DNA of 64,000 nucleotides, from assembly GCA_023260985.1 (NCBI GenBank), contig JALRKY010000080.1, forward strand, positions 1-64,000. The letters are read 5' to 3'. The stretch comes from Altererythrobacter sp. Lineage in GTDB: Bacteria; Pseudomonadota; Alphaproteobacteria; Sphingomonadales; Sphingomonadaceae. Both the position numbers and the translations under genes were made by a program. A model generated the notes under the pieces. It worked only from the letters and a program-made list of their open reading frames with translations, did no database searches and had not been told where the DNA came from. Shown here one piece after another: positions 1 through 3,512 of this stretch; position 1 is the stretch's first letter; the number at the start of each line of letters is the position of its first letter.

Positions 1-1
1 C

Positions 2-598
2 TCGTATGAGCTTGTGTCGGACAATCTACTCGATCTGTCGCACGTCCAGTATCTCCATCCCGTCCTTACCCCGGAATCGGACCCCGATAGCTATTGGGAA
101 AATGATATCGTCCAGGACGGCGATGTGGTCACAACTACTTACAACGTGAGGCAAATCAAACCTACGCCATTCATCCGCCTGAATTGGCCGGACGCACCTG
201 AAAAAGTCGACAATATTGCCGGTGTCCGTTGGGAACCGCCCGCAGCGATGCTTTTGAAGGTGCACATGGAGTCAGCCTCTCCGGGCGACAATCGTTCTAT
301 GAAGACCTGGGGCGCGCATCTAGTTACCCCGGAAACCGAAACAACCTGCCACTACTTTTGGTCGTTCGCGCGCAATTTCCGCCACGAGGACCAAGAGTTC
401 AGCGACACATTGCGGGATACGATCAACTCGGTTTTCACCAATGAAGATGGTTGGATCATCGGTGAAATCCAGGCGAACATGGGGGGTGAGACCGACCTTA
501 TGTCACTGCGTCCAGTGGTCCTTCCAACGGACGAACCCGCTATTCGTGCCCGAAGGATCGTCAGAAAGCTGCTCAAGCAAGAGACGGCAGTTCATTAG
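2..598 (+). CDS. Rieske non-haem iron oxygenase, VanA-type, C-terminal part (truncated by window start)
   Basis: This is the catalytic C-terminal domain of an aromatic-ring oxygenase or O-demethylase oxygenase subunit. The frame is open through the first bases of the window, so the GTG at 14 is internal and the Rieske [2Fe-2S] domain lies outside. The motif DNLLDLSHVQYLHP at the start of the visible part supplies the conserved Asp and the two His ligands (H-x4-H) of the mononuclear iron. It closely resembles the vanillate O-demethylase oxygenase signature. Such enzymes take electrons from a separate reductase and monooxygenate or demethylate aromatic acids. The substrate cannot be read from this fragment. 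A strong hairpin terminator follows about 100 bp downstream. Confidence 0.8.
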   Translation, partial: SYELVSDNLLDLSHVQYLHPVLTPESDPDSYWENDIVQDGDVVTTTYNVRQIKPTPFIRLNWPDAPEKVDNIAGVRWEPPAAMLLKVHMESASPGDNRSMKTWGAHLVTPETETTCHYFWSFARNFRHEDQEFSDTLRDTINSVFTNEDGWIIGEIQANMGGETDLMSLRPVVLPTDEPAIRARRIVRKLLKQETAVH

Positions 599-703
599 AA
601 ACGCTGACAACACGGACCACTCAGTGGGGGCCGGTCAATCGACCGCACAGCGCAATCATCAATATCCCACCTTAAAGGGGCACGTCATTTGCGAATAAAA
701 TGA

Positions 704-732
704 CGCCGCCCAATTGGGCGGCGCCTTTATTT
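704..732. terminator. Bidirectional rho-independent terminator
   Basis: A perfect 20-base palindrome (704-723, GC-rich arms around an AATT centre) is followed on the plus strand by CCTTTATTT. On the minus strand it is followed by a T-rich TCATTTTATT. It sits between the end of the oxygenase gene on the plus strand and the end of the minus-strand gene at 753, so it can end both transcripts. Confidence 0.75.
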
Positions 733-752
733 GCGACTGTGACTTTGTGAGA

Positions 753-1526
753 TTAGCGGTTTGCACCTCTTGCCAAGGTAGCGTTGTATACACGCTCGCT
801 GTTACATTCCATTATAGGATTAAACGTTTGGAACGCACGCATCCATCCACCTTCGTTAGCTATTATGTCCTCGAAGCGGCCCTTCTCTTGCATGTCAGGA
901 AACCATGTGGAGATTTTAACACCGTATTCATTATTAGGGTCTTCCCCGGCCCCTGGCAGATGGTAAGCAACGGTCGCCTTTACCTCGTTCTCGTCGAGAT
1001 ATTCAAACCACGATTTCTGTACGGCGAATAAATCAAGCACAGATTTTCCATCCTTGAAGGTGCAATCAGTAAAGTCCACGACCGCCGTGCTGCTTGGCGC
1101 AGTAGGCTGTGGCCGCACAATCATGCTGGTGCTGAGTGATTGGGAGCCGCAGGTCCAAACCTCATTGAATTCAGCTAGAAGTTCTCCGCCATTGGCGACC
1201 CAGTCGTCCTTGGCTTGACCCATTGCTTCAGCACTGGGGGATGCACCAAACCAAAACGCGGCCTTCCCGCCATTTAACTCGGAGTGATAATGAGGCGTTA
1301 GGACCCAAGCAAAATAATTGTTGAGGCCTCGCTCATTTGACCAGCTGTTCCATTTGGAAGCCACATCCATCAGGTCCACAAGAGATTTGCCGTCATTATA
1401 CTGACAGGCGATCGTCTCAACTTTGCCCCAGCTAGGTGCGGACATGTGGTCGTCTGCGGATACTGGTGCTGCTAACAGTGTTGCAGCCATAGCCGAAGCC
1501 GCCAAAAGATTTATTTTGAGTTTCAT
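753..1526 (-). CDS. Secreted protein of unknown function with two tandem homologous domains
   Basis: This is a 257-residue protein with a clear Sec signal peptide (MKLKINLLAASAMAATLLAA, cleavage near VSA-DD). The mature part consists of two copies of a domain of about 85 residues. Both begin with C-x3-DGKS-[LV]-x-DL-x2-V, continue through aromatic-rich segments, and end with W-x-AN-[GE]-GE/GW followed by a closing Cys. Each copy keeps a first and last cysteine, suggesting one disulfide per repeat in the periplasm or outside the cell. A purine-rich SD (GGGGGG) precedes the ATG. I do not recognise a named family. Its AT-richer composition matches its two neighbours rather than the rest of the window. 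Confidence 0.75.
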   Translation of the reverse strand: MKLKINLLAASAMAATLLAAPVSADDHMSAPSWGKVETIACQYNDGKSLVDLMDVASKWNSWSNERGLNNYFAWVLTPHYHSELNGGKAAFWFGASPSAEAMGQAKDDWVANGGELLAEFNEVWTCGSQSLSTSMIVRPQPTAPSSTAVVDFTDCTFKDGKSVLDLFAVQKSWFEYLDENEVKATVAYHLPGAGEDPNNEYGVKISTWFPDMQEKGRFEDIIANEGGWMRAFQTFNPIMECNSERVYNATLARGANR

Positions 1527-1561
1527 ATAAGTATACCCCCCAAAGATTCTCGAAATGCAAA

Positions 1562-2176
1562 CTAATTTTGAAAATCGTAGTACCCATCCAAAGGGATCAT
1601 TAAGTGATCGAAACCGGTGCCCTTAAACATCAAATAGGGCGCGCCGCTGGTAAAATCAGTAGTAGTATTCGCGATAGTGGAAACGTCTGCAGGCATCATC
1701 ATAAGATGGGGACCGCTAACGATCCAATGCGCCGCATTAGCTTCTTCGATAGACATAGCAGTGTGGTCAAAGTTGTCTGCACCCATGTCGCCATGGAGCA
1801 TCCACATCCAGCCATCGGTCTCTAAGGCAGGTTGTTCGCCTGCCATATAGGCCTTCATCCAAGCTTGAGCCGCTTCATCCGAGCAAGCCGGGACGGCCTC
1901 CCGAACAGTTGCATACCCAGTGACAGGCATTGTCATTGGACTAGCTGATTGGCATGTCCATCCGTTGGTGCCTTCTTGCAAAACCGTTCCATCAGGTGCG
2001 ATAACAGTTGCGTTTTCTCCGATGAATGAAGGAGCAGCTGTAGTAAGCGCCCATAAAATCCATTCACTTTCATTGTGCGCAACAGCGGGTTCCCCCGTAT
2101 CTACAGGAGCTTCTGCATTGTTAGCAGAGCACGCGGCAAGCAGGGTTGCGCTAAACGCAATGATTGTCTTTTTCAT
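1562..2176 (-). CDS. Putative lipoprotein of unknown function
   Basis: This 204-residue protein starts MKKTIIAFSATLLAACSANN, a type II (lipoprotein) signal peptide with lipobox LLAAC, so the mature Cys would be lipid-anchored. I chose the ATG at 2176 because an AGGGAGAT Shine-Dalgarno sits just upstream; a longer frame to 2206 lacks a signal peptide at its start. The mature protein has two further cysteines (NGWTCQS, PACSD) and Trp/Met-rich stretches (WMWMLHG, HLMMMP). No catalytic motif is apparent. It lies between two other exported proteins on the same strand in the AT-richer segment beside the tRNA, and may share a transcript with them. Confidence 0.65.
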   Translation of the reverse strand: MKKTIIAFSATLLAACSANNAEAPVDTGEPAVAHNESEWILWALTTAAPSFIGENATVIAPDGTVLQEGTNGWTCQSASPMTMPVTGYATVREAVPACSDEAAQAWMKAYMAGEQPALETDGWMWMLHGDMGADNFDHTAMSIEEANAAHWIVSGPHLMMMPADVSTIANTTTDFTSGAPYLMFKGTGFDHLMIPLDGYYDFQN

Positions 2177-2266
2177 ACGAGATCTCCCTGACTTTCTATA
2201 TCCCAATATTTTTCATGAAATGAAAATTATTTGGAAATCGATTTTTGTGAAAATGTGCTGATCTAA

Positions 2267-2701
2267 TCAGAGTTTTAATTCGGATACGTCAAATCTCGCT
2301 GTCTTATTGATGAAATCTATTTCACCAATAGCCAAATTAAGTTTACCATTTGATACCGCATCGAAAGTATAAAGCTTAAATACCGTTCCAGATTTCACCC
2401 AAACACCTTGGAGGGTGGCCGTTACTACCTCCTCTCCATTTTGCGTCCAAGCGAACCCTGTGAATTCGCCCATGCTGGCTAAATCCTGTTTGCTCGTAAA
2501 ATCATATGACAAATAAACGCGGCCATAGGGACCTGCCTCTCCAGACAGCGAGGCTTTGAATGTTTCTGCATCAACATCCACAGCATCAATTTCGAATTCA
2601 GCCACGAATTGCTCATTAACATCAAATGATCGCGCCAAGGCCGCAGAGCCCGACATTGCAGTTAAAAGCAAAGTTGCCAATATAACTGATAGAAAACGCA
2701 T
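2267..2701 (-). CDS. Small secreted beta-rich protein of unknown function
   Basis: This 144-residue protein has a signal peptide (MRFLSVILATLLLTAMSGSAALA) and a mature domain of about 120 residues rich in alternating hydrophobic residues, as in a beta-barrel or beta-sandwich. It contains no cysteines after the signal peptide. A good SD (AAGGAG) precedes the ATG. It would be the first gene of a possible leftward transcript including the genes at 1562 and 753. I do not recognise the family. Its base composition is clearly lower in GC than the core genes beyond the tRNA. Confidence 0.65.
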   Translation of the reverse strand: MRFLSVILATLLLTAMSGSAALARSFDVNEQFVAEFEIDAVDVDAETFKASLSGEAGPYGRVYLSYDFTSKQDLASMGEFTGFAWTQNGEEVVTATLQGVWVKSGTVFKLYTFDAVSNGKLNLAIGEIDFINKTARFDVSELKL

Positions 2702-2718
2702 TTGACGCTCCTTCGTTT

Positions 2719-2746
2719 AAGATATTGAAATTTAAAAATATATCTT
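2719..2746. promoter_or_regulatory. Inverted repeat in AT-rich upstream region
   Basis: AAGATAT (2719-2725) and ATATCTT (2740-2746) form a 7-bp inverted repeat with a 14-base AT-rich spacer. It lies just upstream of the SD of the secreted-protein gene starting at 2701. It could be an operator or a leader hairpin; nothing ties it to a known regulator. Confidence 0.3.
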
Positions 2747-2910
2747 GTTTGATTTCAAAATTGATTCGAGAGGCTAAGAGATAAATATTTCATGTCAATA
2801 ACAATTTTATGTTCACTTTTTGTTTGGAGCGCGTCCACAACTGAGATCATTCGGGCCAGCAAAGCTTCGCGAACTGATTTTATGTTAAGTGGGTGGCTGA
2901 AGCTGGGTCG

Positions 2911-3375
2911 TTAGCGGACTTTGGGTTTTCTGCCTCTCGTTCTTTGTGATCCGGACACTACCGTATCGAGAGAGAACATCAGGTCCTCCGCCTCGTGAAA
3001 AAATACAGACATCGCGTGCCGCTCAGCCTTGGCCTCAAGCGTTTCTTGTCCGTGTCTATACTGCAAATGGTTTGCGCCCTTCCTGATCGTCTCAGGCTTT
3101 CTAGCGCCGTGGTATCGGCAGGTCTTACACCCCCATGCAGCGGGGTTCTTGCAGCGTTCTTTGGTACGCTTGGATTTGGCCTCACGACGCGCAGTTCCTA
3201 AAAGCCCGCGGCTCACTTTCCACAACGTATGCCCCGCCGTTAACCCGCCCTCCCCCGGGGGGGGGTAAAGGACGATAGGGTGGTGGAATAGATCGCCTTC
3301 TTCGGTGAGCGAGACCTCAAATCTCCAGGCGGTTAGACGGCTCGCCGAAGCGCAAACAACGGCTGACTGCGACAC
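2911..3375 (-). CDS. HGG-type zinc-finger-like protein, mobile-element associated
   Basis: The central part (RCKNPAAWGCKTCRYHG, then KPETIRKGANHLQYRHGQ) matches the Cys/His motif of small phage- and island-encoded proteins whose usual form is C-x-NPA-x(n)-C-x2-HG followed by a K-G-x-N-x2-x-x-HG segment. These are often found beside integrases or terminases, and their function is not established. The frame opens with GTG at 3375 immediately next to the tRNA 3' end. The N-terminal third is not typical of the family and includes a nine-base C run (on this strand) at about 3257-3265, so a frameshift or a later start (for example GTG near 3213) is possible. It supports a mobile origin for this segment. 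Confidence 0.5.
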   Translation of the reverse strand: MSQSAVVCASASRLTAWRFEVSLTEEGDLFHHPIVLYPPPGEGGLTAGHTLWKVSRGLLGTARREAKSKRTKERCKNPAAWGCKTCRYHGARKPETIRKGANHLQYRHGQETLEAKAERHAMSVFFHEAEDLMFSLDTVVSGSQRTRGRKPKVR

Positions 3376-3435
3376 CTTATTTTACAGGATTTTTACAGGA
3401 AGAAGGCCGGTCTAGCGCCTAACTAATTGAAAAAT

Positions 3436-3512
<77 letters not shown>

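Follow-up and report, generated by a model that had tools for sequence, protein, structure and literature searches.

A putatively exported Altererythrobacter protein of two duplicated domains, predicted to form a fused ferredoxin-like alpha+beta barrel

The ABM-type homodimers, among them SnoaB, OAC, YgiN and methylmuconolactone methylisomerase, are known as cytoplasmic single-domain proteins. Alpha+beta barrels can be built either from single domains that dimerize or from a domain that was duplicated and fused (PMC4835899). Chlorite dismutases (Cld), DyPs and HemQ, which make up the CDE group, carry two ferredoxin-like domains joined in tandem on a single polypeptide; in the Cld and DyP proteins, helix alpha3 bears the haem ligand and a cleft runs between beta5 and beta7 (PMC4835899). 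A further fused two-domain barrel of ~205 residues, 2PGC, was solved by JCSG from the Global Ocean Sampling (GOS) marine metagenome; PMC2557142 names it simply as a structure belonging to a novel GOS family.

Here we describe a 257-aa protein encoded in a 64-kb stretch of Altererythrobacter sp. DNA (the window; Table 1) that resembles each of these systems in part. It shares the tandem, single-chain arrangement of the CDE barrels (Foldseek; PMC4835899) but lacks the alpha3 His at the conserved column and shows no sequence similarity to them. Its single-domain relatives have the fold of the ABM-type homodimers, whereas the present family is predicted to be exported, carries paired cysteines, and has no Pfam ABM match. 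2PGC, unannotated like the 257-aa protein, gave the best TM-score among the matches listed (0.70 by target length), yet the two are 9–10% identical and neither phmmer nor a profile produced a sequence match. True sequence relatives sharing both the two-domain layout and the Cys columns occur in an alphaproteobacterial family that we label f56 (loci L023 and L057–L065); these differ in forming tandem arrays beside Rieske oxygenase, MFS, and TonB-receptor-like genes, and most carry two His residues absent from the window protein.

Table 1 Features of the window and of related loci (L numbers denote loci in other genomes)
Feature	Coordinates	Strand	Basis or remark
CDS, putatively exported two-domain protein, 257 aa	753..1526	minus	ORF, half-vs-half alignment, AlphaFold2 model, 95% identical ortholog in XM-24bin4 (L004)
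Predicted signal peptide, residues 1–24	1455..1526	minus	By eye: n-region KLK, hydrophobic stretch, cut after VSA
N-terminal ferredoxin-like domain (predicted), residues 35–138, with Cys41 and Cys126	1113..1424	minus	DSSP of model, profile
C-terminal ferredoxin-like domain (predicted), residues 147–253, with Cys155 and Cys241	768..1088	minus	DSSP of model, profile
Putatively exported, lipoprotein-like unknown, 204 aa, lipobox-like LAAC	1562..2176	minus	Co-directional, 35 bp upstream of the 257-aa gene
Putatively exported unknown, 144 aa, first gene of the three-gene segment	2267..2701	minus	ORF, searches
Terminator-like hairpin, 10 pairs, 9 G-C	702..725	minus, also scored on plus	Between the 257-aa gene and the convergent oxygenase gene
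Shared segment, three genes, 2.16 kb	663..2825		93% DNA identity with Altererythrobacter sp. XM-24bin4, flanks unrelated
tRNA-Arg (CCG)	3436..3512	minus	3' end toward low-GC 1–3435; GC change falls here
Clade-B paralogues	L023:6380-8749, L058:8009-10379, L059:7594-9967, L060:7310-8883, L061:8450-10022; also L057, L062, L063, L065		
Putatively exported protein, 228–229 aa	L023:5667-6356, L060:6601-7287, L063:9286-9972		One tested, without Pfam match

An initial annotation of the window had placed a gene for a secreted protein at this position; the gene is real, and the strand, absent from that record, is minus. Its product begins with a predicted signal peptide, relatives start with similar leaders in our alignment, and residues 21–30 have low pLDDT in the AlphaFold2 model. 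From this leader we infer that the protein is exported; given its even, conserved number of cysteines, it may be an exported, disulfide-bonded protein. The proposal of a surface or secreted module is consistent with the leader as far as export goes; nothing points specifically to the surface, and a periplasmic or extracellular location would be equally possible.

The two halves of the protein each open with an exact copy of the motif C-x3-DGKS-[LV]-x-DL (C41-QYN-DGKS-L-V-DL and C155-TFK-DGKS-V-L-DL) and end in a Trp/Gly-rich block (VANGGELLAEFNEVWTC and ANEGGWMRAFQTFNPIMEC, respectively) followed by a closing cysteine, C126 or C241. Local alignment of one half against the other scored 95, against a mean of 27.6 (sd 4.8) and a maximum of 56 in 5,000 shuffles; because the score so exceeds the shuffle maximum, we regard the duplication as real, and the two copies with the landmarks described in the initial annotation stand. 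The domain length of about 85 residues given there does not, as it corresponds to the Cys-to-Cys distance (86 residues in the N half and 87 in the C half), whereas the folded domain, whose strands span residues 35–138 and 147–253 in the model, comprises ~105. DGKS itself was considered as a nucleotide-binding loop and rejected: the GxxxxGKS context is missing, and the site lies just ahead of helix alpha1 in a ferredoxin-like fold.

The N and C halves are 26% identical, and the N half is nearer to the N half of an f56 protein (36%), which excludes a recent duplication; judged by these identities, the duplication is ancient. In a tree of 25 domains, N halves grouped with N halves and C halves with C halves above chance, with modest support, and the C half of the window protein grouped with an f56 C half (support 86/78). 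This tree, which covers 115 columns only and has long branches, is suggestive of a fusion that predates the split of these lineages, or of a fused gene passed between them.

AlphaFold2, supplied with a 33-row alignment, returned a model of the 257-aa protein with a mean pLDDT of 82.8 and a pTM of 0.76. By DSSP, the N half consists of E35-43, H49-65, E72-78, E90-96, H99-112, H114-123 and E124-138, and the C half of E147-157, H163-179, E185-191, E203-209, H212-224, H227-235 and E239-241/E245-253. The order beta-alpha-beta-beta-alpha-alpha-beta is common to both, so that the repeat symmetry seen in the sequence is kept in the predicted structure. Both modelled halves, as well as a single-domain relative modelled alone (pLDDT 91.8), contain the beta-alpha-beta-beta-alpha-beta domain typical of the dimeric / ferredoxin-like alpha+beta barrel superfamily (Pfam clan CL0032).

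Foldseek searches of the PDB with the 257-aa model gave 157 matches at E<=0.001, headed by fused alpha+beta barrels: 3dtz, a putative chlorite dismutase (E 1.2e-7), and 2pgc (E 1.8e-7; TM 0.58 by query length), with an anthrone-oxidase-like protein, putative monooxygenases, chlorite dismutases, and DyPs among the further leading matches. The alignments extend over both domains of the fused-barrel structures (TM up to 0.58 by query and 0.71 by target length), consistent with the two-domain barrel arrangement of CL0032. The matches speak for the fold; as their identities are ~10%, function is not transferable. The single-domain model retrieved SnoaB, hydroxynitrile lyase, OAC, 4-methylmuconolactone methylisomerase, YgiN, and ABM proteins.

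The 257-aa protein is thus very probably, on the strength of its model, an alpha+beta barrel of two fused ferredoxin-like domains, and the models of this family span the range of both routes described for such barrels (PMC4835899). The domain is new in sequence and not in fold, an unnamed branch of the familiar ferredoxin-like alpha+beta barrel. The idea of a new module has accordingly to be given up: the fold is the known dimeric, or ferredoxin-like, alpha+beta barrel, in which fused duplicates are standard (Foldseek; PMC4835899). The initial annotation's thought of a surface adhesin or structural protein would fit an exported product with a lipoprotein-like neighbor, but a compact single barrel of one or two domains, lacking an anchor and long intraprotein repeat arrays, makes such a role quite unlikely.

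That the domain is unrecognizable by sequence, as first suggested, was borne out. With the cut-off relaxed to E 10, the 257-aa protein still matched nothing in Pfam-A or NCBIfam, and sequence searches of the PDB with it or with the profiles gave no chain whose E-value was meaningful. A Pfam scan of 33 relatives gave sub-threshold matches to DUF3303 (0.086) and NIPSNAP (0.14), in one member each, both of them families of the dimeric alpha/beta barrel clan; further sub-threshold Pfam and NCBIfam names were scattered over unrelated families (NCBIfam 0.002–0.3) and were taken as noise. The Pfam model PF03992 (ABM) was matched neither by the 257-aa protein nor by the scanned relatives. With 0 Pfam families matched, the 257-aa protein does not enter CL0032 by family match, which bars filing under a named family and not in the superfamily, since the latter is defined by fold. 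Searches of viral contigs (with the protein as query) and of plasmids found no sequence relative, and viral structures gave no convincing fold match.

Single-repeat proteins, whose existence the initial annotation had proposed to check, were recovered by protein and profile searches. They measure ~125–152 aa and look exported, having leader-like starts (genomes G143, G237, G274, G282, G433, G557, G507, G610, and G080). In f56, 11 of whose 18 genomes match, two-domain genes stand in tandem, with as many as four in an array. When genomes were drawn evenly and searched by profile, matches appeared in 8/385 of the class and 2/399 of the phylum, both of the latter in the organism's own family, so the protein family is uncommon and, in this sampling, confined to Alphaproteobacteria. 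The organism's own genome holds a single-domain paralogue (G000:C62:63402-63623; L026:8364-8687), open over 107 aa and with a match that stops after two thirds of the domain; this copy is probably truncated or frameshifted. In genome G392 (L029:3096-3866), two adjacent single-domain ORFs, the first identified by profile and the second by eye, resemble a two-domain protein split in two.

Cysteines occupy the columns of C41, C126, C155, and C241 in 25/25 two-domain proteins. Seven of the eight single-domain proteins have two in the mature part, and the eighth has three, one possibly in the leader; a subgroup (L031 and L027) is without Cys at the conserved columns and has two others nearby. Together with the predicted export, this pattern suggests one disulfide per domain, probably C41–C126 and C155–C241. 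G46 and P78 vary least over the family as a whole, and only Gly, Pro, and Cys columns are near invariant. The aromatic residues W59, W62, Y71, W74, W92, F93, and W109 are kept in the window protein's subgroup, defined as that protein, its XM-24bin4 ortholog, and the first array gene of four f56 genomes.

The other f56 array genes (clade B, n = 19) encode two invariant His residues in the C-domain, in the columns of window residues Q170 (helix alpha3) and I205 (strand beta7), and we regard their products as candidate exported porphyrin or metal proteins. The likeness to the Cld/DyP haem site is by structural element; the exact residue is not matched. Extending a haem or porphyrin role of the chlorite dismutase/DyP/HemQ type to the window protein would draw on these paralogues, whose His residues fall on the ligand helix and the cleft-lining strand of Cld/DyP, and on the fused Cld/DyP/HemQ-group barrels among the best Foldseek matches. 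We nevertheless consider it improbable. In the window protein, the helix that carries the proximal haem His of the CDE barrels has Gln170 in the column that is His in 19/19 clade-B proteins; the ortholog and the four array members of its subgroup likewise have Q/A and I/L/V in the two columns, and the mature part of the single-domain relatives is poor in His or lacks it. Because both His are absent, we do not file the window protein as a haem protein.

We tentatively favor, by analogy, a barrel located in the periplasm whose ligand would be a small hydrophobic compound. The protein would be exported and fold as one barrel from two fused domains, each closed by a disulfide; it would be the one-chain counterpart of single-domain family members that presumably associate as homodimers. 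Its cavity may bind a small hydrophobic or aromatic compound outside the cytoplasm, in the role of a carrier, a buffer, or a cofactor-free processing protein. This suggestion arises because fold relatives bind such molecules, the structures matched by the single-domain model act on small organic molecules where they have been characterized, aromatics are conserved, and catabolic genes lie near several relatives: Rieske oxygenase, cupin, MFS, and TonB-receptor-like genes beside the f56 arrays, and P450, SDR, and SnoaL-like genes (by eye) around the G507 member. The neighborhoods lend weak support, since catabolic context is conserved within f56 only. At every f56 locus read far enough, the 228–229-aa protein of Table 1 lies between the two-domain array and the MFS gene.

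The nearest rival is an enzyme of the SnoaB, OAC, or methylmuconolactone isomerase kind, a cofactor-free oxygenase, isomerase, or cyclase that would act outside the cytoplasm; it seems to us somewhat doubtful. In its favor, the single-domain relative has such enzymes among its closest fold matches, and catabolic genes occur near the f56, G433/G557, G507, and G392 members; against catalysis, a family-wide conserved polar set is absent. As a broader and rather unlikely speculation, tandem paralogues of an exported alphaproteobacterial barrel branch may have specialized, some keeping the His pair of a Cld-like cleft to bind porphyrin or metal outside the cytoplasm, and the window type, having lost or never had the pair, binding another hydrophobic ligand, with the set traveling on mobile segments of exported genes.

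What emerges is an ordinary fold, an unnamed sequence family, and a real, ancient duplication, with the array paralogues as one lead. Exported hypothetical proteins of scattered alphaproteobacteria are now placed in a fold that binds small hydrophobic molecules or porphyrins, and the family gains a domain definition together with testable residues, namely the paired cysteines, the aromatics, and the two His of the clade-B paralogues; alignments A3 and A5 could seed a curated family.

The 257-aa gene stands, as the initial annotation had it, with two other exported unknowns, both on the same strand. Neither the 204-aa nor the 144-aa protein had a Pfam or NCBIfam match above cut-off, and among 76 genomes of the family, outside the organism's own, the former has one relative and the latter none. 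Downstream, the terminator-like hairpin is singled out by stem strength and position, the scan yielding about as many sites in shuffled sequence. Beyond it, window positions 2–598 hold a gene for a VanA-like Rieske oxygenase (PF19112, 1.9e-42), reduced to its C-terminal portion by the contig start and convergent with the 257-aa gene. The oxygenase gene falls outside the segment shared with XM-24bin4, and none was evident in the 12.8 kb read from that genome; its association with the 257-aa gene, not kept there, was set aside as a conserved link and remains a weak hint.

The rest of the 64-kb window has no match to the 12.8 kb of XM-24bin4 compared. GC content is 0.493 in window positions 1–3435 and 0.629 in the remainder, where sampled 3.4-kb stretches are all at least 0.591. 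Because a 93% identical segment has different flanks in the two genomes, GC is low, and a tRNA-Arg gene adjoins, the three-gene segment was probably acquired horizontally, and positions 1–3435 probably belong to a genomic island that is truncated where the contig ends, at window base 1. Neither an integrase nor a clear second att site turned up; the tRNA end recurs, with 2 mismatches, at one further position, on contig C2. A chimeric contig is a possible alternative source of the low-GC stretch. The 257-aa gene would have arrived together with its two exported neighbors, and we hold the whole account, an exported, horizontally acquired fused barrel that binds a small ligand, with evenly balanced confidence, averaging a firm fold and a tentative function.

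A 177-aa neighbor from XM-24bin4 had no match when the genome that holds the window was searched for it. Adjoining the shared segment in XM-24bin4, a 174-aa exported protein (L004:4183-4707) resembles the 144-aa unknown by eye (EGDMEGYGKVYATYHLTYD vs GEAGPYGRVYLSYDFTSK), and the two are possibly paralogues.
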